A program made the position numbers and the translations under genes. From Desulfoscipio geothermicus DSM 3669 (lineage in GTDB: Bacteria > Bacillota > Desulfotomaculia > Desulfotomaculales > Desulfallaceae), in assembly GCF_900115975.1 (NCBI RefSeq), contig NZ_FOYM01000003.1, positions 1 through 64,000 on the forward strand: DNA of 64,000 nt, read 5' to 3'. The notes beneath the pieces are model-generated. The model ran no database searches and was not told the origin of the DNA. It saw nothing but the letters and a program-made list of their open reading frames with translations. Of the stretch, positions 1 through 60,665 are shown in pieces. Position 1 is the first letter of the stretch. Each line of letters starts with the position of its first letter.

Positions 1-2072
1 GCTTTGGCAGCGTCACGCAGCTGGACCATGATCCGGCCGTCAGAAATGTAGCTGCCGTTGTCACCCAGGGTAATGCTGGTGGACAGAGCTTTTTCTTCAG
101 GAGCAGGGGTGCCAACTTTAGCGTTGACTACTACTGCTGCTTCGTCTTGTTTCGGGAATACTTTGTAGTAATCATCATCACTTGTAGAGGTTTCTATGTC
201 GAAGGCTTCATAAGTTTCAATTTCTATATAACCATTAGCATTAGCTGTGCCTAATTCAGCCTTAACCGCTACGTCATCGTTTACTTCGTTAATAGCGTCG
301 CCACGGACTACTACTTCGATGTCTCCTTCAGGCACAGTGCGGTCGAGTACATACTCAATACCGCTGATTTCGATGGTGCTTGCTTCATTGCTGTCGTCTT
401 TGATGGAAATTACGAGCAGGTTGTCTTCGTCATCAGTGTCGTCTTTTACATCATAATCGTCAATTTCCAGGTCCCCTTCAGTTACCTGAACATCAGGCAC
501 ACCAACAAACCGTACGCCTCTCGGCAGGTCGATAATCAGGTCTTTACCGTCGATGACCAGACCAGCGTCAGCTTCAGTAATAGTGATGGTACCAGCAGCT
601 TGCGCGCTACGACCAATTACCAAACCGTCTGCTACCTCAGCGGTCACCTTTACTGCGGGCACTACTTTAGCCACAGTCAATTCGCCGCTCAAACCAGCAG
701 ATCCGCTTACCTCGACTACCAGGTCGCCTTCAAAGCCAGGCTCAACCATTACTTCCATGTCTTTCAGTTCCAGTTCGGCCGCATCTGATGAAGAGCCACC
801 AGTAAATTTAAACTTGGCCGTTTTGCCGTCTCTGCCAGGGAAGCCAACGGGTTCAATATAAAGACCATGATCGTTATCGTCATCTACTACGGCCCACTTA
901 GCACCTTCAGGCAGAGTGAGCAGCAGGGTACGGTTAGCAATCATACTGCCAGCAATGGCTTCTTCAATCTTGATCTTAGCGATTTCCTGTTCTAATTGAC
1001 CAGCGTAAATGGTCGGAGCATCGCCAGCGCTGATGGTTGCATCATAATCACCATATCTTGCTACAACCAGCTCGCTTACGGATGTTGTGCTTTCACCTTT
1101 AACTTTTACTACTACATCGCCATATTCAGCGTCAGTTTCGTCAACACACTCAATGTTCGCGGTTAATTCGATCAAAGTGGCATTGTTAGTTCCGTCGTAA
1201 TTTGTTGTATCAATTTTCAGTTCGTCTTTTGCAGTATTAAATTTAATTTCTGCATTGTCGCCAGCTGCGTCGCCTACGCCGGCAAAGAGATCGTCACCCC
1301 AAATGATTTTATAGGTGGGAGTTCCAGTCCACTCAAAACCATCCGGCAGGACAAACTTGATAGCACTGCTTTCACCATCAGCAATTGCGCCGGCACGGTC
1401 TTCTTTAATCCTTATCTTGATCGGGTCGGATGTTGTATCATTATTGAAGTTAGGTGCATTGGTTACTTCAAGGTCTACTTCCCCGCCACTTACACGACCG
1501 ACAAGAATTTTACCACTTGAAAATCCACTGCTAGTGGGTGCAGTAGCTGACAACTCAATATCTCCTTCAAATCCTTCGTCAACCCAGATGGAACCCAGAT
1601 TGAATGTGAAGTAAGCATAGTTGCCAGATTCGCTTATATTATTAACAATAAGCTTAATTTCATCAGAGTCTAACTTCTCTACGGTAACATCAGTAGCTTT
1701 TAAAGCGTTAACTTCGCCAAGATAGCTACCAGGGAATTCAAAGTAGTTACCAGGCTTCTGGCCATATACGTTTCCAGAAACTGTCCAGTCACCGGCTACC
1801 ATTTCATCACTTTCCTGGGTAGCATTGGCTTTTAGAAACTTAAAATCATTCGGCAGACGGAATGTTACACTGTCACCAGGCTGTAATTGTCCAGGGGCAA
1901 ATACTGCTTCAAAACGCCCCAGCTCATAAGCACCATTGTCATCCACGGTGGGTGCTGCCAAAGTATCAAACCCTGTAGCCGCCCCCGCGATTCCCGCAAA
2001 CGGGAACACCATGGTGAACGCAAATACGAGAGCCATCAATAATGAAAATCTCTTGTTACGTAACTTACGCAA
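1..2072 (-). CDS. Secreted stalk-domain (copper amine oxidase N-like) surface protein, 3' end outside window
   Basis: The frame is open from a TTG start at 2072 to the window edge, giving 690 visible residues. An AAGGAGGG ribosome site lies just upstream. The N-terminus is a signal peptide: basic MRKLRNKR, then a hydrophobic stretch ending near AGAAT. The body is acidic and made of repeated beta-rich units, each with a phrase like ITISEADAGLVI or LLLTLPEGAKW, as in large secreted proteins of Desulfotomaculum-type bacteria. The last visible residues (TLGDNGSYISDGRIMVQLRD) match the start of a copper amine oxidase N-terminal-like 'stalk' domain, so more of that domain should follow. A structural cell-surface role is inferred; no enzyme motif is visible. 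Two ECF-type promoters sit upstream, which links it to the divergent sigma factor. Confidence 0.75.
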   Translation of the reverse strand, partial: MRKLRNKRFSLLMALVFAFTMVFPFAGIAGAATGFDTLAAPTVDDNGAYELGRFEAVFAPGQLQPGDSVTFRLPNDFKFLKANATQESDEMVAGDWTVSGNVYGQKPGNYFEFPGSYLGEVNALKATDVTVEKLDSDEIKLIVNNISESGNYAYFTFNLGSIWVDEGFEGDIELSATAPTSSGFSSGKILVGRVSGGEVDLEVTNAPNFNNDTTSDPIKIRIKEDRAGAIADGESSAIKFVLPDGFEWTGTPTYKIIWGDDLFAGVGDAAGDNAEIKFNTAKDELKIDTTNYDGTNNATLIELTANIECVDETDAEYGDVVVKVKGESTTSVSELVVARYGDYDATISAGDAPTIYAGQLEQEIAKIKIEEAIAGSMIANRTLLLTLPEGAKWAVVDDDNDHGLYIEPVGFPGRDGKTAKFKFTGGSSSDAAELELKDMEVMVEPGFEGDLVVEVSGSAGLSGELTVAKVVPAVKVTAEVADGLVIGRSAQAAGTITITEADAGLVIDGKDLIIDLPRGVRFVGVPDVQVTEGDLEIDDYDVKDDTDDEDNLLVISIKDDSNEASTIEISGIEYVLDRTVPEGDIEVVVRGDAINEVNDDVAVKAELGTANANGYIEIETYEAFDIETSTSDDDYYKVFPKQDEAAVVVNAKVGTPAPEEKALSTSITLGDNGSYISDGRIMVQLRDAAK

Positions 2073-2337
2073 AACTAATTTCCCTCCTTGAAATAAATAT
2101 TTTGGCCTTTCGGCCTGGTTAAGTATGAAACCTTACTTTAGTTTCACATCCCCCCTTGAACAGGTATCAGTTAATTTATTAACTTGTTGCTATAGAGAAG
2201 CGGCCCGGCCGCTTGCTCACTTTGTGAACAGGCTATCTAACTGACTGACATGGATTATTATATCTCCGCTGCATGAATCGTGCAAGGGTGTTATGTATTT
2301 CTTCGTTTGCCATGTCTTTGGCCTGTCGCTCGTTTCT

Positions 2338-2366
2338 TTAGACACATGGTTTCAGCCAAAAGTTCC
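2338..2366 (-). promoter_or_regulatory. ECF-sigma promoter, proximal, for the surface protein gene
   Basis: On the minus strand GGAACTT (2366-2360) is followed after exactly 16 bases by GTCTAA (2343-2338). This is the classic ECF -35/-10 pair. It would give a leader of about 260 bases ahead of the TTG start at 2072. Confidence 0.7.
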
Positions 2367-2445
2367 ACCCGGCTGGATTTTTTCTTTTCATTTTATTATT
2401 TGCATTTGTTTGGTCATTTTGGCATCTTTGTTTGCACCCGTTTTT

Positions 2446-2474
2446 TTAGACACGCGGGTTACGCCAAAAGTTCC
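2446..2474 (-). promoter_or_regulatory. ECF-sigma promoter, distal, for the surface protein gene
   Basis: This is a second GGAACTT (2474-2468), 16-base spacer, GTCTAA (2451-2446), lying 108 bases upstream of the proximal copy. Both share the longer frame GGAACTTTTGGC and GTGTCTAAA. Confidence 0.7.
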
Positions 2475-2759
2475 AGGTGAGGGAAAAAATTATTAAAAAC
2501 TTTTTTTCTGCCATTCTTCCACAGTATAATTACATGGAAGATTAATATATGCAGGCGCAAACATGTGCCGCTCACCGCCTGTGGCTTTATAAACAAAGAT
2601 GAAACCAGCGCCTTTAGGATGGTTTGAAGCAGATGCGCGAAGAAATATCAGGACGAGCAGGCAGCAGCAACCTTTGCTATATTATACGATATGCAGTAAA
2701 TTATTTATGAGATTAACTATCTTATCTATTGTTTTTGTTGAAAATTTTTGGCCGGCTTC

Positions 2760-2788
2760 GGAACTTTTCCATATACATAGGTGTCTAA
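2760..2788 (+). promoter_or_regulatory. ECF-sigma promoter (autoregulatory) for the sigma/anti-sigma operon
   Basis: GGAACTT (2760-2766), a 16-base spacer and GTCTAA (2783-2788) have the same elements and spacing as the two promoters of the divergent surface gene. The sigma start therefore lies downstream of this site, even though the frame is open further upstream. Confidence 0.75.
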
Positions 2789-2829: not shown

Positions 2830-3447
2830 TTGGACAACGTAAAGTTCCTGGTAAAAAGGTCCCAAAAAGGCGACACCGGGGCCTTTGAACAACTGGTGAC
2901 CATGTACCAGGACAGGATTTACGCCTTAAGTTACCAACTCACCGGCAATTATGCCGACGCGCAGGATCTGGCGCAGAACGTGTTCATAAGAGCTTACCGG
3001 GCCCTGCCGGGTTTCCGCAACGAGGCGGATTTCGGCACCTGGCTGCACCGGATAGCGGTGAACCTTTCCATTAACGAAAAGCGCAGGAAAAAACCCGATG
3101 TTTCCCTCGACAACCCGGTGCAAACAGATGAGGGCGAGATGCCCCGCCTGGTGGCCTCGAACGGAGACAGCCCCGAGGAGGCCTACGAAAAGAAGGAATT
3201 CAGCAATATGGTGCGGGAGGCCCTATGGGAATTGTCCGAGGAACACAGGGCGGTGCTGGTATTGAGGGAGATGCAGGGCTATTCGTACGATGAAATCGCA
3301 CAAATGTTGGACTGCACCCTGGGCACCGTAAAGTCCAGGATCAACCGGGCGCGCCAGGCGCTTAAAAAACAAATCGTCCGGATTGCCGCGAACAACGGAA
3401 GAAACCTTCCTTATTATAATGGGCACCGGGGAGGTGGAAAAAAGTGA
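2830..3447 (+). CDS. ECF RNA polymerase sigma factor (SigW/RpoE-like)
   Basis: This is an extracytoplasmic-function sigma factor of about 205 residues. Region 2 is visible as GAFEQLVTMYQDRIYALSYQL and the DAQDLAQNVFIRAYRAL motif that melts and binds -10 DNA. Region 4 follows as LREMQGYSYDEIAQMLDCTLGTVKSRINRAR, the helix-turn-helix that reads the -35 box. I chose the TTG at 2830 because GAGGGGG lies nine bases before it and because the gene's own ECF promoter (2760-2788) lies inside the longer open frame. The stop overlaps the start of the anti-sigma gene by four bases, so the two are translationally coupled. It probably reads the three GGAACTT-N16-GTCTAA promoters around it. Confidence 0.88.
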   Translation: MDNVKFLVKRSQKGDTGAFEQLVTMYQDRIYALSYQLTGNYADAQDLAQNVFIRAYRALPGFRNEADFGTWLHRIAVNLSINEKRRKKPDVSLDNPVQTDEGEMPRLVASNGDSPEEAYEKKEFSNMVREALWELSEEHRAVLVLREMQGYSYDEIAQMLDCTLGTVKSRINRARQALKKQIVRIAANNGRNLPYYNGHRGGGKK

Positions 3448-4541
3448 ATTGCAGCCAAGTTAAAAAATTAATACCGGAATGGTTGGACGGTGAGCTTGAG
3501 CATGTCCAATCAATGACCGTAAAAGATCACGTCGCCGCCTGCCGGGACTGCCGGGCGGAAGCCGATTTCTGGCGGGAACTGGGCGCCACTCTCCGGGGAG
3601 GTATGGAGGACATCAAGGCTCCGCCCGGGTTTGCCGCCGGGGTGATGGCCCAATTGCCCAAGCAGCACGGCAGTACCGCCCGGCACAGCCTGTTTGACCG
3701 GTGGAAGCGCAGCGTGGCCGTGGCAGCTACCTTTCTGCTGGTGGCGGTGGGTTCCGCCGGCGCATACATGAACTGGGGAGGCAACATCGTTACGCGGGTG
3801 GCCGACAATAACCCGAGACAGGTCATCAAACCCCCTGTCGAACAGCCCGGCGACATTAATATACCGAATACCGGCCCGCAGCAGAGCGGTGAAGCCGGCA
3901 GTCCGGTGGAACAGTCAGGCAGCGGCGGTACTGAGCAAGGCGCAGCTCCGGGCCCTGACGGTAATAACGCTCGTGGCACGGGCGGCAACTCTGAAAGCAC
4001 ACAGCATACTCCCTCCGGGAACGGCACAGCACAGCCCGCCGCGCCGGACGGAGCGGGCGGCAGTACGCCCGATGCGGCAGTTAACGCGGGGCAGTACGCG
4101 CTGCTGAACATTGAGAAGGACCGGGTTGTTGAACGCACCCTGCTGAAGATAAATGTCGGCGATTTGGATGCGGCCCACGGGCAAGCGCTGGCTCTTATCA
4201 ACGAAACCGGTGCCGCTTATGAAGTGCTGGGCACGGAAAATGCTCCCACGGGCAGCCGGGAAACATTGAAGATAACCGTCAGCAGCAGCCTGTCCGGCAA
4301 GTTGATGGCCGGTCTCAAAACCCTGGGACAGGTGGTAACCGCCGATACCCAGCGGGAAGACATTAATGCCCGCTACAATGAAAAGGTGGAGCAGTACCTC
4401 TCCTTAAAGGCACAGCTACAGGGGGCAAGCGCGGTTGAAAGAGAGCAGTTGCAGGTGAAGATGGCTGGCATTGAAGCGCAGCTCCGGAGTTGGGACAGGG
4501 AAGCCGATACGGATACGATTATTTTGTGGTTGGAGGGTTAG
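3444..4541 (+). CDS. Membrane anti-sigma factor with zinc-finger (zf-HC2) domain
   Basis: This 365-residue protein should hold the upstream sigma factor inactive. Residues 1-45 carry the anti-sigma zinc motif, with HVAACRDC (His-x3-Cys-x2-Cys) and an earlier Cys. A single membrane helix (VAVAATFLLVAVGSAGAY) lies near residues 92-110. Outside it comes a long Gly/Ser/Pro/Gln-rich linker, then a folded C-terminal domain of about 145 residues ending in a predicted coiled coil; this part resembles DUF4349-type sensor domains. The topology fits an N-terminal cytoplasmic sigma-binding domain and an extracytoplasmic sensor. The sensed signal is unknown. The gene starts ATG-less with GTG inside the sigma gene's last codons. 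Confidence 0.82.
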   Translation: MNCSQVKKLIPEWLDGELEHVQSMTVKDHVAACRDCRAEADFWRELGATLRGGMEDIKAPPGFAAGVMAQLPKQHGSTARHSLFDRWKRSVAVAATFLLVAVGSAGAYMNWGGNIVTRVADNNPRQVIKPPVEQPGDINIPNTGPQQSGEAGSPVEQSGSGGTEQGAAPGPDGNNARGTGGNSESTQHTPSGNGTAQPAAPDGAGGSTPDAAVNAGQYALLNIEKDRVVERTLLKINVGDLDAAHGQALALINETGAAYEVLGTENAPTGSRETLKITVSSSLSGKLMAGLKTLGQVVTADTQREDINARYNEKVEQYLSLKAQLQGASAVEREQLQVKMAGIEAQLRSWDREADTDTIILWLEG

Positions 4542-4623: not shown

Positions 4624-4676
4624 AAAAAGGGACAGGCAACTTTTTCAAAATACGAAAAAGTAGCCTGTCCCTTTTT
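4624..4676. repeat. GGGACAGGC-family palindrome between convergent genes
   Basis: The left arm AAAAAGGGACAGGCAACTTT and right arm AAAGTAGCCTGTCCCTTTTT enclose a short AAAATAC loop, with A and T runs at the two ends. It sits between the convergent anti-sigma and hicA ends, where it would serve as a two-way terminator. Confidence 0.85.
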
Positions 4677-4702: not shown

Positions 4703-4930
4703 CTATTTCTTATTAATAAGTTCTTCAATACTCAAATCAGCCTGTCGCAGGATTGAAGTCAAAGTTCCAGGGGCCAATTCTTTATGAAATGGTACGATAA
4801 CGATTCTTTTCTTTCCGTTACGTATACCTCTTAGTTTTACATGGCTACCTTTCTGAGCTGCTTTAATAAAACCTAAATGAGATAACAGTTGAATAACCTG
4901 GGCACCCGATAATACCGGTAGTTTAGCCAT
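4703..4930 (-). CDS. hicA: HicA-family mRNA interferase toxin
   Basis: This 75-residue protein starts at the ATG at 4930 (MAKLPVLSGAQVIQLLSHLG). It has the double-stranded RNA-binding-like HicA fold, with the key histidine in KGSHVKLRG, followed by IVIVPFHKELAPGTLTSILRQADLS. HicA toxins cleave mRNA under stress and are neutralised by HicB. The start overlaps the end of hicB by eight bases (ATGGCTAA), so the order is antitoxin then toxin, with translational coupling. A longer frame upstream is out of context and overlaps hicB. The stop is followed by the palindrome at 4624-4676. Confidence 0.85.
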   Translation of the reverse strand: MAKLPVLSGAQVIQLLSHLGFIKAAQKGSHVKLRGIRNGKKRIVIVPFHKELAPGTLTSILRQADLSIEELINKK

Positions 4931-5141
4931 TGGAAAAATTGACCTCAAGCGGTGCAATAATAGGAGCTTGGATGTTTTCCGGGATTTCCTCATCTTCAAA
5001 ATATAGTTCTAATGCTTCTTTTAGATTAGTTAAGGCTTCTTCTACTGTTTTCCCCTGGGAAGTTACCTCTACTTCAAGACTTCGGGCTACATACCATTCG
5101 CCTTCTTTGGCGATAGCAGCAGTGAAACGCTTGCTAACCAT
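4923..5141 (-). CDS. hicB: HicB-family antitoxin
   Basis: This 72-residue protein has the partial RNase H-like HicB fold: FTAAIAKEGEWYVARSLEVEV, then TSQGKTVEEALTNLKEALELYFED. It should bind and block HicA. It lacks the C-terminal ribbon-helix-helix extension seen in the second HicB at 14765-15124, so any autoregulation would have to come from elsewhere. The start is preceded by TAGGAGGC. It is transcribed first and overlaps hicA. Confidence 0.83.
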   Translation of the reverse strand: MVSKRFTAAIAKEGEWYVARSLEVEVTSQGKTVEEALTNLKEALELYFEDEEIPENIQAPIIAPLEVNFSNG

Positions 5142-5249
5142 ATACTAGCCTCCTAAAAAGTGGTTCTTCTTGGTTCAAATTATATCATATTATGGACTTA
5201 CGGGCAGTAGTGTTATACCGTGAACGGGGTTAAAATAAAAAGGCTAAAT

Positions 5250-5304
5250 AAAAGGGGACAGGCAACTTTTTCAAAAAGCGAAAAAGTAGCCTGTCCCCTT
5301 TTTT
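5250..5304. repeat. GGGGACAGGC palindrome at the end of the SLH protease gene
   Basis: Arms AAAAGGGGACAGGCAACTTT and AAAGTAGCCTGTCCCCTTTT enclose an AAAAAGC loop. The right end overlaps the protease stop codon (5303-5305), and the minus-strand copy ends in a T run, so it can terminate that transcript. Confidence 0.85.
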
Positions 5305-8300
5305 AGCTGGTTTTTTGGGTTAGGAGGTCGAGCAGGCGGTTGAGGGCGGCGGCGGTTTCGGCCCGGGTGATGTATGCACCGGGGGCGAACAGGTTGCCGG
5401 GTCTGCCTGACAGCAACCCGAGGGCGTGGGATTTGCTCACGTCTTCCCGCGCCCAGGCGGCAACGATTTGCCAATCTTTATAGTCCGGTTTTTCCGGGGG
5501 TTCTTCCGGCAAGCCCCTGAGCAGGCCCCAGGCCCGCACCAGCAGCGCCGCGGCCTCTTCCCGGGTTATGCGCTCCAGGGGACGGAAGGTGTTATCGTCA
5601 TACCCCACGGCCAGGCCCCTGCCGTAAGCCAGGGCCACGGCGTTTTCAGCCCAGTGCGGGATGGTATCCGCGTCCTTATATGGCAGGTTGGCGGGTGCGC
5701 CGCCGGTGCCCAGCAGCCTGGCCAGCATTACGGTGAATTCCACCCGGGTAACGGCGCTGTCGGGCCGGAATGTGCCGTCCGGGTACCCGCTGAGCATGCC
5801 CCGGGATACCAGGTGCCGGATGTCGGTTTCCGCCCAGTGGCCGTCAATGTCGGAAAAACCCTTTTGCCGGCGGGGTAAACTGAGCTGCAAGGAGGCAACC
5901 CCGCCCGTTGCGCCGTCTACCGCCACCAATTGTATTGCCTCGGCCTCACCCACACTGACGGGATAGTAAAACTCCCCGTTGTCCGTAAGTTCCACCGCCT
6001 GTCCGTCGCCCCCCGGGAGCCGGGCATACAGGCGGGATGCGCCGGTTTTGCCGGTAACCAGGGAGAAGTCCTCGAAGGGTATAGTGGACCTGATCTCCAA
6101 AAGGGGCGGTTCCACTCCGTCACGGGTTTCGGCCTCCAGCGCAGCTACAATTTGCTCGCCGCCGGGCCCGTACAGGGCGGACACTGTGACCGGCTCTCCC
6201 GGCACCAGATCCCGAAACCTGACGGGCAACCCGTTTTTGGTGACCACAGCGACAGAACTGAGCCGGTATGTGCTTCCGTCAGACAGTTTTATCCCCTGGC
6301 CCGGGCTGTAGGATTCCAAAACACCTTTCACTTTACCGGCAGCCTCGGCGATATCCACCCGCCATACCTCACCGGAAACGGGGTCCGAAATGACCCGCAC
6401 CCACTGTCCCGGGCTTAAGATGGATGTGCCGGCGGCCATTCCCCACCTGAATACCTGCGTTTGGGGGCTGAAACTCAAGTACCGAAAACCTTTACGGCTA
6501 TCCATCATGTAAAAAGTATCCTTCTCCGCAAAAATCACGCGCCCGTAGCTTGCATCGGAATAAACCGTAATACCCAACGCTTCGGTGGAGTTGGGAATCA
6601 GGTTTAACATAACCAAATCCCCCGCCCGGATATTGCCCATCTCGACAGGCCGGCGGTCCCTGACAATCTTTATCCCGGCCATGACATGGTATCTGCCGCC
6701 GGATGAGAGGGTAATCGTATCAGTGCCGGTTTCCACACCGGTTACCTGCCCCACCACCATATCCCGCTTCACCGCCAGGTGATATATTTTTCCGTCCGAG
6801 CCCAGTATAATGTGCACGGGCATGCCGGGCAGCAGTTTTTCCAGGCCTGCGTCTGTGGAGGCGCCAAAGGGCAGGTCGGCCGGGTCACCGTCCAACAGGA
6901 TGTCGGAAAAGGAAACGGAGGCTTCTTCGGCCAGATTATAAACCAACTGGTGATCCAGCAGTTTCAGTTGCCGGTTGGTCATATCAATATTGGTAAGTAT
7001 TCCTTTTATTTCCACGCTGGCCAAATTAGCCTGCCAGATGGTCTGGGTATGCGGATTAATGTTGGCTGTCACATCGGCCCCCGGGGGGATTGCCTGCCCG
7101 TTGTCAACCGGTTTCCCGTTGATGGTCAGAGCGTTTTCAATGCTGCCCTCAATGGCGTAACCGCCCTCCCGGTAATCCCGGTTCATACGTACCAGCACCA
7201 TACTTTCGCCCTCCGCCAGCGATTTGACGCCGCCGGCCCGCCAGGTTCGGCCCACCGCATAAGCCCGCCGGGGTTGGCCGGGCGGTCCCACCAGGTAAAG
7301 TTCAGCCCCCGCCGGGGGCAGGTCGCCGGCGGGCAGCAGCCGGTCATCCACGGCCAGCAGGGTATCCGGCGGCAGGGCCGGGCGCTCCCCCCCGGCCAGG
7401 GTAATTTTGCCGTCACTGCTGCTTTGCACCGGCTTTCGGGCCGGCATCTGGCCGAAGACCAGGGCAAAGTCCTGGGTCAAGCCCCTCTCCGGGGAGGCGT
7501 CCTCCGGTACGGACCGGCCGTGTACCACTATTGTATAGGTGCCGGGCTGCGGATCGGGTATGTACACCTGCTCCACATTGTTAAGAACGTCCCGCTCCCC
7601 CCGGCGGGCAAAGTCGTTGCCGAAATACTTGGCGCCATCCGGGGCGATCACTTCCAGGTCCAGGTTGTTTACCAGGGCCGGGGCCGCGCCCGGCGCAGCC
7701 GCCGGGTCCGACCAGGCCAGGGTGGCTTTGAAGGGCGCGCCGCTGTGTTCAACGTTCTTTTTTACTGTAAAACTTTCGCCGGTGGCCAGGCCCTTGGGTT
7801 CGTCCACCAGATCAAACAACCGGTTTTCCAGGGCCAGGATTGTGCTGCCAATATCCAGCAGGCCGAAACCGGCCGCTTCGGGCTCCGCGTCCAGTCGCCC
7901 GGCCCCGTTGATCAAGGCGGCTTTCAACAGGGCCGCCGAAGGTTCCTCAAAACCCGTGTTTTCCGTCATGTACTGGCGCAGCAATGCCGCCGCCCCGCCG
8001 GTCACCGCCGTGGCCATGCTGGTGCCCTGCATGACGGTGTATTCCGGCCGCCCCGGGAGGTCTCCCCCCAGCAGCCGGGAGGCGGTGGATATTATGGATG
8101 TGCCGGGGGCCACCAGCTCGGGCTTGATGCGCCCGTCCTGGGCCGGCCCCCGGCTCGAGAATGCGGCTATCTCTTCCGTACTGCCGGTATCGTTTTCAAA
8201 GGCTGGGCGGGGACTGAGCGAGGCCCCCACCACCAGGGCGTTTTTACTGTTGGCCTCGGCGGTTAGGGTGCCTCCCCGGGGCCCGGAATTGCCCGCCCCG

Positions 8301-9544
8301 AATATGGCCAGAAAATCGGGGTGTTCGCGCACAAAGGCATCTATTTGGGAGGCCGCTGAGTCGTATGTATTTTGCTTTTTGCCCCAGCCGTTAACGTGGA
8401 TGCGGGCATCGGCGTTGTAGGCCGGCTCGAACAGTTCCCGCAGGTCCAGGGGCGGGGCGGGATTATCATCCTTGTCCACGATGCCCTGGAAATACAGGCT
8501 GGCCCCCGGGGCCAGGCCGGCGTACTTGCCGTCCGACGCCTTACCGCTCCCCACCAGGGTTCCGGCCATGTGAGTACCGTGGCCGACGGTGTCCGCCGGC
8601 GTTTCCACCCCGGCCCAAGATTTGATCATGATCACCCGGGGTTTCCTGCCCGGCGGGCTTTCCAGGTCCGGGTGCAGGTTGCCGGGGGAGCCGGTGTCCA
8701 GCCCGCTGTCCGCCAGGGCGATGGTCTGGCCCGCGCCGTTCAGCCCGTCCACTGTGACAAAGCCGGGGATGGCCAGCGGCCTGGCGCCCACAATATCCCT
8801 GGCCCGGTCATTTAAAAGCTCGGGCCGGGTGTATTCTTCCACGTACAGCACCCGGGGGGAACCGGCCAGTTCGTTTACCGCCGCGCCGGGCAATTCCACC
8901 CGCAGGTAGCGCCCTTCCCCGGCGGCGCCTTCCAGCACCCGGCCGCCCAGGCGTTTCACCAGCTGTATCACCGCGGGCTTGTCGCCGTCCCCCGCCAGGG
9001 TGATCGTCAGCACCACCGGTTCGGCTGTCTTTCCGCCCGTACTGCTCTGTTTTTCCAGTTCAGCCCGCCCGGTTTGCAGTTCTGCGGGCAGCTTTTGCTC
9101 GGGCCGGTATTCGGTGAGGCTTTTTACATAAGGTAAATCCACCAGCGCCTGTTTTTGTTGTTTCCCGGCCCGCACCAGCAGGGTTTCACCGTTAAGCCCC
9201 CCCATCCAGTCCACCTGTTCGGCCAGCTTCGCTTTTTCCGCGCTGCTGGGGGGCCTTTGCAGTTCCAGGGCGTAAACCGCCAGGTTTTGTTCATCCTGCG
9301 CCGCGCCGGAGTCGTTCGGGTTTCCGGCTTTGTCGTTTTTCCGGCTTTCGCCCCCGGTGGGGCTGTTCATGCCCAGCCAGGCCGCCAGGCCCAGCGCAAG
9401 CAAAACTATAGTCAAAACCAGTGCCCAACGCTTGCTGTTTATCGTGTTGCACACCTCCTTCCCGCAGCCAAAAGAAAACCTCCTTGCCATACGTTGTTTT
9501 TTTTGGCGCATGTGCAGGAGCTGTCTTGCACTGTTTTTTCCCAT
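5303..9544 (-). CDS. Secreted subtilisin-like S8 serine protease with three SLH anchor domains
   Basis: This 1413-residue protein starts with a membrane/signal segment (ALVLTIVLLALGLAAWLGM, about residues 41-59). The S8 domain carries the triad: Asp in ALADSGLDTG (about 279), His in GHGTHMAGTL (about 322) and Ser in GTSMATAVTGG (about 515). A proprotein-convertase-like beta domain follows (KATLAWSDPAAAPG), then several hundred residues of beta-rich unknown domains. Three S-layer homology domains end the protein (for example GYPDGTFRPDSAVTRVEF). It is probably a wall-anchored extracellular protease. The start is uncertain: strong AAGGAGG sites lie at about 9465 and 9485, but no good start codon follows at the usual distance, so ATG 9490 or 9544 are only the best available. 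Confidence 0.85.
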   Translation of the reverse strand: MGKNSARQLLHMRQKKQRMARRFSFGCGKEVCNTINSKRWALVLTIVLLALGLAAWLGMNSPTGGESRKNDKAGNPNDSGAAQDEQNLAVYALELQRPPSSAEKAKLAEQVDWMGGLNGETLLVRAGKQQKQALVDLPYVKSLTEYRPEQKLPAELQTGRAELEKQSSTGGKTAEPVVLTITLAGDGDKPAVIQLVKRLGGRVLEGAAGEGRYLRVELPGAAVNELAGSPRVLYVEEYTRPELLNDRARDIVGARPLAIPGFVTVDGLNGAGQTIALADSGLDTGSPGNLHPDLESPPGRKPRVIMIKSWAGVETPADTVGHGTHMAGTLVGSGKASDGKYAGLAPGASLYFQGIVDKDDNPAPPLDLRELFEPAYNADARIHVNGWGKKQNTYDSAASQIDAFVREHPDFLAIFGAGNSGPRGGTLTAEANSKNALVVGASLSPRPAFENDTGSTEEIAAFSSRGPAQDGRIKPELVAPGTSIISTASRLLGGDLPGRPEYTVMQGTSMATAVTGGAAALLRQYMTENTGFEEPSAALLKAALINGAGRLDAEPEAAGFGLLDIGSTILALENRLFDLVDEPKGLATGESFTVKKNVEHSGAPFKATLAWSDPAAAPGAAPALVNNLDLEVIAPDGAKYFGNDFARRGERDVLNNVEQVYIPDPQPGTYTIVVHGRSVPEDASPERGLTQDFALVFGQMPARKPVQSSSDGKITLAGGERPALPPDTLLAVDDRLLPAGDLPPAGAELYLVGPPGQPRRAYAVGRTWRAGGVKSLAEGESMVLVRMNRDYREGGYAIEGSIENALTINGKPVDNGQAIPPGADVTANINPHTQTIWQANLASVEIKGILTNIDMTNRQLKLLDHQLVYNLAEEASVSFSDILLDGDPADLPFGASTDAGLEKLLPGMPVHIILGSDGKIYHLAVKRDMVVGQVTGVETGTDTITLSSGGRYHVMAGIKIVRDRRPVEMGNIRAGDLVMLNLIPNSTEALGITVYSDASYGRVIFAEKDTFYMMDSRKGFRYLSFSPQTQVFRWGMAAGTSILSPGQWVRVISDPVSGEVWRVDIAEAAGKVKGVLESYSPGQGIKLSDGSTYRLSSVAVVTKNGLPVRFRDLVPGEPVTVSALYGPGGEQIVAALEAETRDGVEPPLLEIRSTIPFEDFSLVTGKTGASRLYARLPGGDGQAVELTDNGEFYYPVSVGEAEAIQLVAVDGATGGVASLQLSLPRRQKGFSDIDGHWAETDIRHLVSRGMLSGYPDGTFRPDSAVTRVEFTVMLARLLGTGGAPANLPYKDADTIPHWAENAVALAYGRGLAVGYDDNTFRPLERITREEAAALLVRAWGLLRGLPEEPPEKPDYKDWQIVAAWAREDVSKSHALGLLSGRPGNLFAPGAYITRAETAAALNRLLDLLTQKTS

Positions 9545-9694: not shown

Positions 9695-9803
9695 GTAAAA
9701 AGGGGGACTGGCTCCGATTGGTTTTGCGGCAAAAAAGGGGACAGGCAACTTTTTTAAAAGCCAAAAAAGTAGCCTGTCCCCTTTTTTGCCAGTCCCCTTT
9801 TAC
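9695..9803. repeat. Nested palindromes: GGGGACAGGC element inside a GGGGACTGGC element
   Basis: The outer arms are GTAAAAAGGGGGACTGGC (9695-9712) and GCCAGTCCCCTTTTAC (9788-9803). Between them lies a complete element, 9731-9787, with arms AAAAAAGGGGACAGGCAACT and AGTAGCCTGTCCCCTTTTTT. The outer right arm contains the mbl stop codon. Confidence 0.85.
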
Positions 9804-60567: not shown

Positions 60568-60665
60568 GAAAAAGGGGACAGGCTACTTTTTCGCTTTTTG
60601 AAAAAGTTGCCTGTCCCCTTTTTCACCTGTAAATTATTAACATGAAAAGTAGCCTGTCCCCTTTT
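60568..60665. repeat. GGGGACAGGC palindrome plus a stranded half
   Basis: The full palindrome 60568-60624 has arms GAAAAAGGGGACAGGC and GCCTGTCCCCTTTTTC, inner arms CTTTTTC/GAAAAAG. A right half, CATGAAAAGTAGCCTGTCCC, follows at 60641-60665, as at 39110. Confidence 0.85.

Follow-up and report, generated by a model that had tools for sequence, protein, structure and literature searches.

The data argue strongly that the divergent genes at the start of the window (the whole 64,000-nucleotide stretch of the Desulfoscipio geothermicus DSM 3669 genome that was analysed) form a positively autoregulated ECF sigma/anti-sigma switch, and that the main dedicated target of this switch is the divergently transcribed gene for a major S-layer-like protein. 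Three exact copies of one promoter pattern connect the two transcription units, and the sigma factor encoded beside them very likely recognises this pattern.

Results

A whole-assembly scan of the 3.65-Mb genome found three exact copies of GGAACTT-N16-GTCTAA, all within one intergenic region. One copy (2760..2788, plus strand) is assigned as the autoregulatory ECF promoter of the sigma/anti-sigma operon on the basis of the exact pattern and its conserved position in orthologous loci. The other two lie on the minus strand: a gene-proximal promoter of the surface gene (2338..2366), with an exact pattern whose orientation towards this gene is conserved across the order, and a gene-distal tandem copy (2446..2474), likewise exact, the tandem pair being kept in the families f1 and f18. 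At each of the three sites the pattern is embedded in GGAACTTTT...GTGTCTAAA. The description of three matching sites with common flanking bases in the initial annotation was thus exact, and the genome scan for the 29-base promoter pattern that it proposed returned only these three copies. No match to the reversed control pattern was present in the 3.65-Mb assembly, and the pattern itself did not occur in dinucleotide-shuffled versions of the window. The -35 element GGAACTT resembles the RpoE type, and the anatomy of the sites is like that of RpoE/AlgU-type -35/-10 promoters. Because the likeness between the two surface-gene sites spans 37 nt (84% identity) and the copies lie 108 nt apart, they are read as duplicated promoters and not as a long repeat.

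With three mismatches allowed, the genome contained 37 matches to the pattern versus 54 to the control, that is, no excess over the control. Further regulon members in this genome at two to three mismatches were accordingly rejected, the counts being at or under those of the control. Three of the five two-mismatch sites lie 20-50 nt upstream of a gene and are weak candidates, the genes being, by sequence-based naming only, a lipoprotein, a DUF1343-like protein and a small membrane protein; the remaining two lie within coding frames, in one case that of a further ECF sigma gene.

The ECF sigma factor (2830..3447, plus strand; 205 aa), aligned with 28 orthologues, has a Shine-Dalgarno sequence at 2814-2820, and its TTG start at 2830 lies ~41 nt downstream of the ECF promoter. 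It consists of regions 2 and 4 only (Sigma70_r2, PF04542, at 22-88; Sigma70_r4_2, PF08281, at 126-178), and its closest solved structures are SigW (E 8e-51), AlgU and RpoE. The protein missed the cut-offs of the SigW equivalogs TIGR02948/NF007223 (164.4/243.1 and 169.7/209 bits) and of the RpoE equivalog TIGR02939 (161.2/236.15 bits). Two characteristics of group IV ECF factors are found, as far as sequence can tell: a linked anti-sigma gene, here a zf-HC2 gene that overlaps downstream and adjoins the sigma gene in ~40 relatives, and an AAC-containing -35 element in the factor's own promoter, GGAACTT being exact in 35/40 loci.

The membrane anti-sigma factor (3444..4541, plus strand), the gene start of which overlaps the end of the sigma gene, was recognised by zf-HC2, weak DUF4349 similarity, the motif H29-x3-C33-x2-C36 and a structure model; H29, C33 and C36 are invariant in 40 sequences. 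In the model, a zinc-type domain is followed by one predicted membrane helix (84-111), a disordered linker of ~100 residues and a distal extracytoplasmic, DUF4349-like domain (228-364) that is confidently folded. The protein has the Hx3Cx2C motif as defined for the ASDI anti-sigma class (PMC7406223) and, in the model, four helices followed by helix 84-111, which places it among the class I (ASDI) zinc anti-sigma factors. It missed the gathering cut-off of DUF4349 (PF14257; 17.7/27.7 bits, E 0.0024), and 30 of 40 anti-sigma members show DUF4349 similarity at E up to 0.01 (best 2.6e-7). A fold search with the sensor domain gave nothing above background, with Z <8 to PilO/PulL-like and generic ferredoxin-like domains. 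No paper joining DUF4349 with anti-sigma factors was found in the literature searched.

Directly downstream of the anti-sigma gene lies a HicA toxin gene (PF07927; window 4703-5145, minus strand) with a probable HicB partner adjoining. A dispersed palindrome, GGGACAGGCWACTTTTTC...GAAAAAGTWGCCTGTCCC, occurs in the window at 4629-4671, 5255-5297, 9738-9780, 60575-60617 and about ten more places; with 24 half-site matches versus 0.06 expected, it resembles a small hairpin of a mobile or REP-like kind.

The surface (S-layer-like) protein gene (3..2072, minus strand) runs off the contig. Contig C34 starts inside this gene, so that the window holds just the first 690 of 775 aa; the remainder lies on contig C79 (288-nt identical overlap), giving a product of 775 aa, 82 kDa and pI 4.2. 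A signal-peptide-like helix (7-22) precedes a predicted chain of Ig-like beta-sandwich domains, with a resemblance to Gram-positive adhesins and pilins that is one of fold only. Pfam reports no domain in the part within the window, and among solved structures there is no sequence match. Full-length orthologues end in the PF07833 'stalk' domain (CuAO_N1), which is the sole domain in five full-length orthologues, SLH domains being absent from them; this C-terminal domain may be the wall anchor. The gene probably codes for the cell's main surface-coat protein. Codon usage was dropped as a sign of high expression, as the CAI of 0.584 is near the bottom among the window's genes and gives no support, although the ribosomal reference set was impure. 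Downstream of the sigma operon (window 5303-9544, minus strand) lies the gene for a subtilisin-like protease of 1413 aa that has three SLH domains and is a possible surface-layer processing enzyme.

Upstream of the -35 elements of the surface gene lie UP-element-like A/T-tracts, at 2377..2400 for the proximal and at 2484..2508 for the distal promoter (both minus strand). The same A-then-T tract is found ~10-20 nt upstream of -35 in the surface-gene promoter set and is much weaker in the sigma-gene set. Between the ECF promoters and the gene, the leader holds a candidate vegetative (sigma-A type) promoter, TTGCAC-N17-TATAAT (2257..2285, minus strand), with a -35 of only 3/6. Because this -35 is poor, the site was not listed by a generic consensus sigma-70 scan; TATAAT is found at a comparable spot in eight f1/f18 leaders. 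The strict sigma-H consensus RNAGGAWWW-N11/12-RNNGAATWW has no match in the window's own leader and matches 20 of 58 leaders versus 0 in shuffles, ~35-90 nt downstream of the ECF promoter. The surface gene therefore has a candidate second conserved promoter, apparently sigma-A-like here and sigma-H-like in other families.

The leader of the surface gene is ~160-480 nt long and conserved inside the family. On the minus strand of the window it contains a GC-rich hairpin, AAGCGGCCGGGCCGCTT (2198..2214; conserved stem, with one compensatory change common to two sequences), a STAB-SD-like element, AAGGGGGGATG (2147..2157), ~75 nt upstream of the start codon, and the Shine-Dalgarno sequence AAGGAGGG (2082..2089), a block of columns conserved among the aligned leaders. 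STAB-SD-like elements (AAGGRGG..ATG-like) occur in 46/58 leaders versus 2.25 expected from shuffles. Both the sigma-H and the STAB-SD readings draw on consensus knowledge. The 5' leader (2073-2337, minus strand) and the L036-L072 leaders are strongly conserved and also hold a GTTAATAAATTAAC hairpin, and a UUCUCU in the leader could pair with the Shine-Dalgarno sequence. Given that Rfam knows no RNA in this leader and that RNAalifold covariation is weak (two pairs changed on both sides), we describe conserved elements and do not claim a new class of structured RNA.

Among 120 relatives, anti-sigma homologues were found in 73, and 40 loci were fetched; in most of these a surface-protein homologue lies close to the sigma gene. 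The pattern before the sigma gene is exact in 35 of the 40 orthologous loci and has one mismatch in four, one locus being cut by the contig, and its position is ~-67 to -92 relative to the sigma start. Copies on the opposite strand face the surface gene, and in f1 and f18 they form tandem pairs 91-154 bp apart. A strict form of the pattern, GGAACTTT-N14/15-TGTCTAA, occurs in 65/120 relatives, with 0 for the reversed control. Its co-occurrence with the anti-sigma orthologue (58 relatives with both, 7 with the pattern only, 15 with the orthologue only, 40 with neither) gives a Fisher P of ~2e-12, phylogeny being ignored; the seven have no anti-sigma match at the cut-off used.

In nearly every case the gene behind a pattern site in a relative is a sigma or surface-protein homologue, and the pattern also goes with the surface gene on other contigs (e.g. 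L121, L126-L128, L131, L142, L154). The exceptions are large secreted proteins of ~800-1000 aa, mostly without a Pfam domain (L053 with SLH; L123, L124, L141 and L147 without known domains; L144 similar), and a DUF6847 (PF20935) gene with the same ECF promoter 17-32 nt upstream (L135:4192-4665, L140:2365-2826, L146:4218-4691). Because the pattern also precedes secreted-protein and DUF6847 genes in some relatives, the regulon does not always consist of two genes. One genome, which matches Pelotomaculum sp. PtaB.Bin104, yields six matches to the anti-sigma factor along with 14 sites of the pattern, most of them in opposite-strand pairs on shared contigs; these surplus copies reflect either an expansion or a mixed bin.

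In a blind survey of 398 genomes across the phylum, the pattern was present in 47. Outside the order (L242-L267), 30 of the 32 pattern sites examined precede a sigma or surface-protein homologue. Named genomes with the arrangement are, among others, Desulfotruncus arcticus, Desulfoscipio, Pelotomaculum, Moorella stamsii, Heliobacterium mobile, Heliorestis and Syntrophomonas wolfei.

The last of these connects the module to published expression data. In the genome that we take to be the S. wolfei Goettingen chromosome, the surface-protein homologue lies beside the sigma gene at 149.6-152.0 kb. From its likely true start it has 812 aa and 85.4 kDa; from the TTG at codon 72 its mass is 78,098.2 Da. 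Schmidt et al. report for Swol_0133 a mass of 78,098, no predicted signal peptide and a C-terminal CuAO domain, rank it first in abundance among the membrane proteins and predict it to be an S-layer protein (PMC3582634). By genome position and exact mass match, the homologue is Swol_0133. Two other papers give NSAF values of 0.026-0.042 and abundance in all three growth conditions (PMC4324140), and name Swol_0133 as the highest-expressed gene (PMC11087674). Status as the dominant surface protein is published solely for this S. wolfei homologue, and no ECF factor is linked to it in the passages on Swol_0133 in the literature searched. The annotated start of Swol_0133 (L268:6088-8526) appears to be ~71 codons late, which would account for the absent signal-peptide prediction in published work.

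Discussion

Combining the promoter architecture with its conservation, we suggest that (i) the zinc-type domain of the anti-sigma factor would keep the sigma factor at the membrane, (ii) an envelope signal at the extracytoplasmic DUF4349-like domain would free the sigma factor, as is usual for the class, and (iii) the free sigma factor would guide RNA polymerase to GGAACTTTT-N13-TGTCTAA, using one site for its own operon and, in the window's family, two tandem sites for the surface gene. The surface gene would be geared to high output by A/T-tracts, a second promoter and a long leader, in which the second conserved promoter could provide basal expression and the STAB-SD-like element probably stabilises the mRNA.

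The comparative data lend strong support to autoregulation and to a dedicated surface target; the initial annotation had called its evidence direct, whereas the support is comparative. The word dedicated holds for the sigma factor; the surface gene, for its part, carries a further conserved promoter. The claim of heavy expression is borne out by the A/T-tracts, the STAB-SD-like leader and the published proteomics and RNA-seq of the S. wolfei homologue (PMC3582634, PMC4324140, PMC11087674), and not by codon usage.

Given three features that the initial annotation had overlooked, namely the second promoter, the A/T-tract and the STAB-SD-like element at the surface gene, the ECF factor probably boosts this gene instead of being its sole driver; with a second promoter of its own in the leader, the surface gene may be independent of that factor. 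A more far-reaching version is that most of the surface protein is made from the downstream sigma-A-like/sigma-H-like promoter and that the ECF promoters are auxiliary, providing a stress-dependent boost. The sigma-H consensus in 20 of the 58 leaders (0 in shuffles), TATAAT in eight f1/f18 leaders and the abundance of Swol_0133 in all three growth conditions tested (PMC4324140) are consistent with this version. However, conservation reaches further for the ECF promoters than for either second promoter, and the ECF promoters also have A/T-tracts and occur in duplicate in the window's family; we give the auxiliary role a serious chance that falls somewhat short of even. Alternatively, the anti-sigma factor may close a homeostatic loop, as the initial annotation proposed: its extracytoplasmic domain would monitor the surface layer, in the form of free subunits or gaps, and the sigma factor would restore a thinned layer. 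This would extend the autoregulated switch that we favour. In the model the long flexible linker and the compact, well-predicted distal domain are suited to reach the wall, the sensor and surface genes have been neighbours over long evolutionary times, and a single dominant target per genome suits dedicated feedback; yet the DUF4349 similarity is weak, the fold matches of the sensor domain are middling (Z <8) and generic envelope-stress sensing would give the same picture. We therefore regard the loop as a tentative idea only. Equally doubtful in our judgement is its generalisation, namely that across several Firmicutes classes the main surface-layer protein is held at a set-point by a dedicated ECF factor, with the anti-sigma factor reading the state of the layer and a growth-phase promoter and a ribosome-protected leader as backing.

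Two further readings concern the pattern itself. The genome has 16 sigma-70 region-2 matches and at least one other ECF/anti-sigma pair, so an unlinked ECF factor might read the pattern, the linked sigma gene being merely one target; the initial annotation had named this as the outcome that would count against it. The data contradict it: the pattern travels with the linked sigma/anti-sigma pair and precedes the linked sigma gene and the same two gene classes across dozens of genomes, and ECF factors with a linked anti-sigma factor are usually autoregulated (PMC8103513), which makes an unlinked reader very improbable. Sequence conservation by itself would fit an operator as well as a promoter, and the conserved 29-mers might thus be bound by a DNA-binding regulator. 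Two asymmetric boxes at a fixed 16-nt spacing with a free spacer are, however, promoter anatomy, and the sites are correctly oriented, ~40 nt upstream of the sigma start and ahead of the long leader, with A/T-tracts upstream; that they are operators and not promoters is hardly credible.

Little is understood of how bacteria adjust the synthesis of the surface coat, which is often their most abundant protein, to demand. In the switch that we favour, a regulator, the promoters that it uses and the coat gene together make up a single small module that is portable and conserved widely; cultured organisms, among them Syntrophomonas wolfei, Moorella and heliobacteria, have this module, and in one case its coat gene is known to be the top-expressed gene. 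A sigma factor group would thereby gain a function and an orphan abundant protein a regulator, and the 29-base signature locates such surface proteins in new genomes. As the pairing recurs in many distantly related anaerobes, the tuning of the surface coat by a bacterium becomes directly testable. An autoregulated ECF factor with a membrane anti-sigma factor is a known kind of system, and ECF classification databases may already list a predicted promoter motif for this sigma factor. An ECF module that is conserved across classes and devoted to a major S-layer-like protein seems not to have been described in the literature searched, many subscription papers lying outside that search; within it, no paper joining ECF factors and S-layers with Desulfotomaculum was found.

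The module shares traits with several known systems. Swol_0133 is homologous to the surface protein, has a C-terminal CuAO_N1 domain and is encoded divergently to the same sigma/anti-sigma pair behind the same promoters, but has only 28% identity to the surface protein described here. Like S-layer proteins with SLH anchors, the surface protein is secreted, acidic (pI 4.2) and beta-rich, has one cysteine and is likely the major surface protein; unlike them, it has no SLH domain. The leader parallels that of cry3A, in which an SD-like sequence lies in the long leader of an abundant protein (PMC4113751), in that a strong Shine-Dalgarno-like sequence is placed far upstream of the real start, but here the element mostly lies 65-120 nt before the start, is tied to an ATG and, in the window's family, stands behind a hairpin. 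The regulators SigW/RsiW of Bacillus subtilis and RpoE/RseA and AlgU/MucA of proteobacteria also combine a single-pass membrane anti-sigma factor with autoregulation, and RsiW and MucA align with the N-terminus of this anti-sigma factor. In contrast, those systems serve a broad stress regulon and the system described here one structural surface protein, and the present anti-sigma factor differs from those of all three systems in its DUF4349-like sensor domain.
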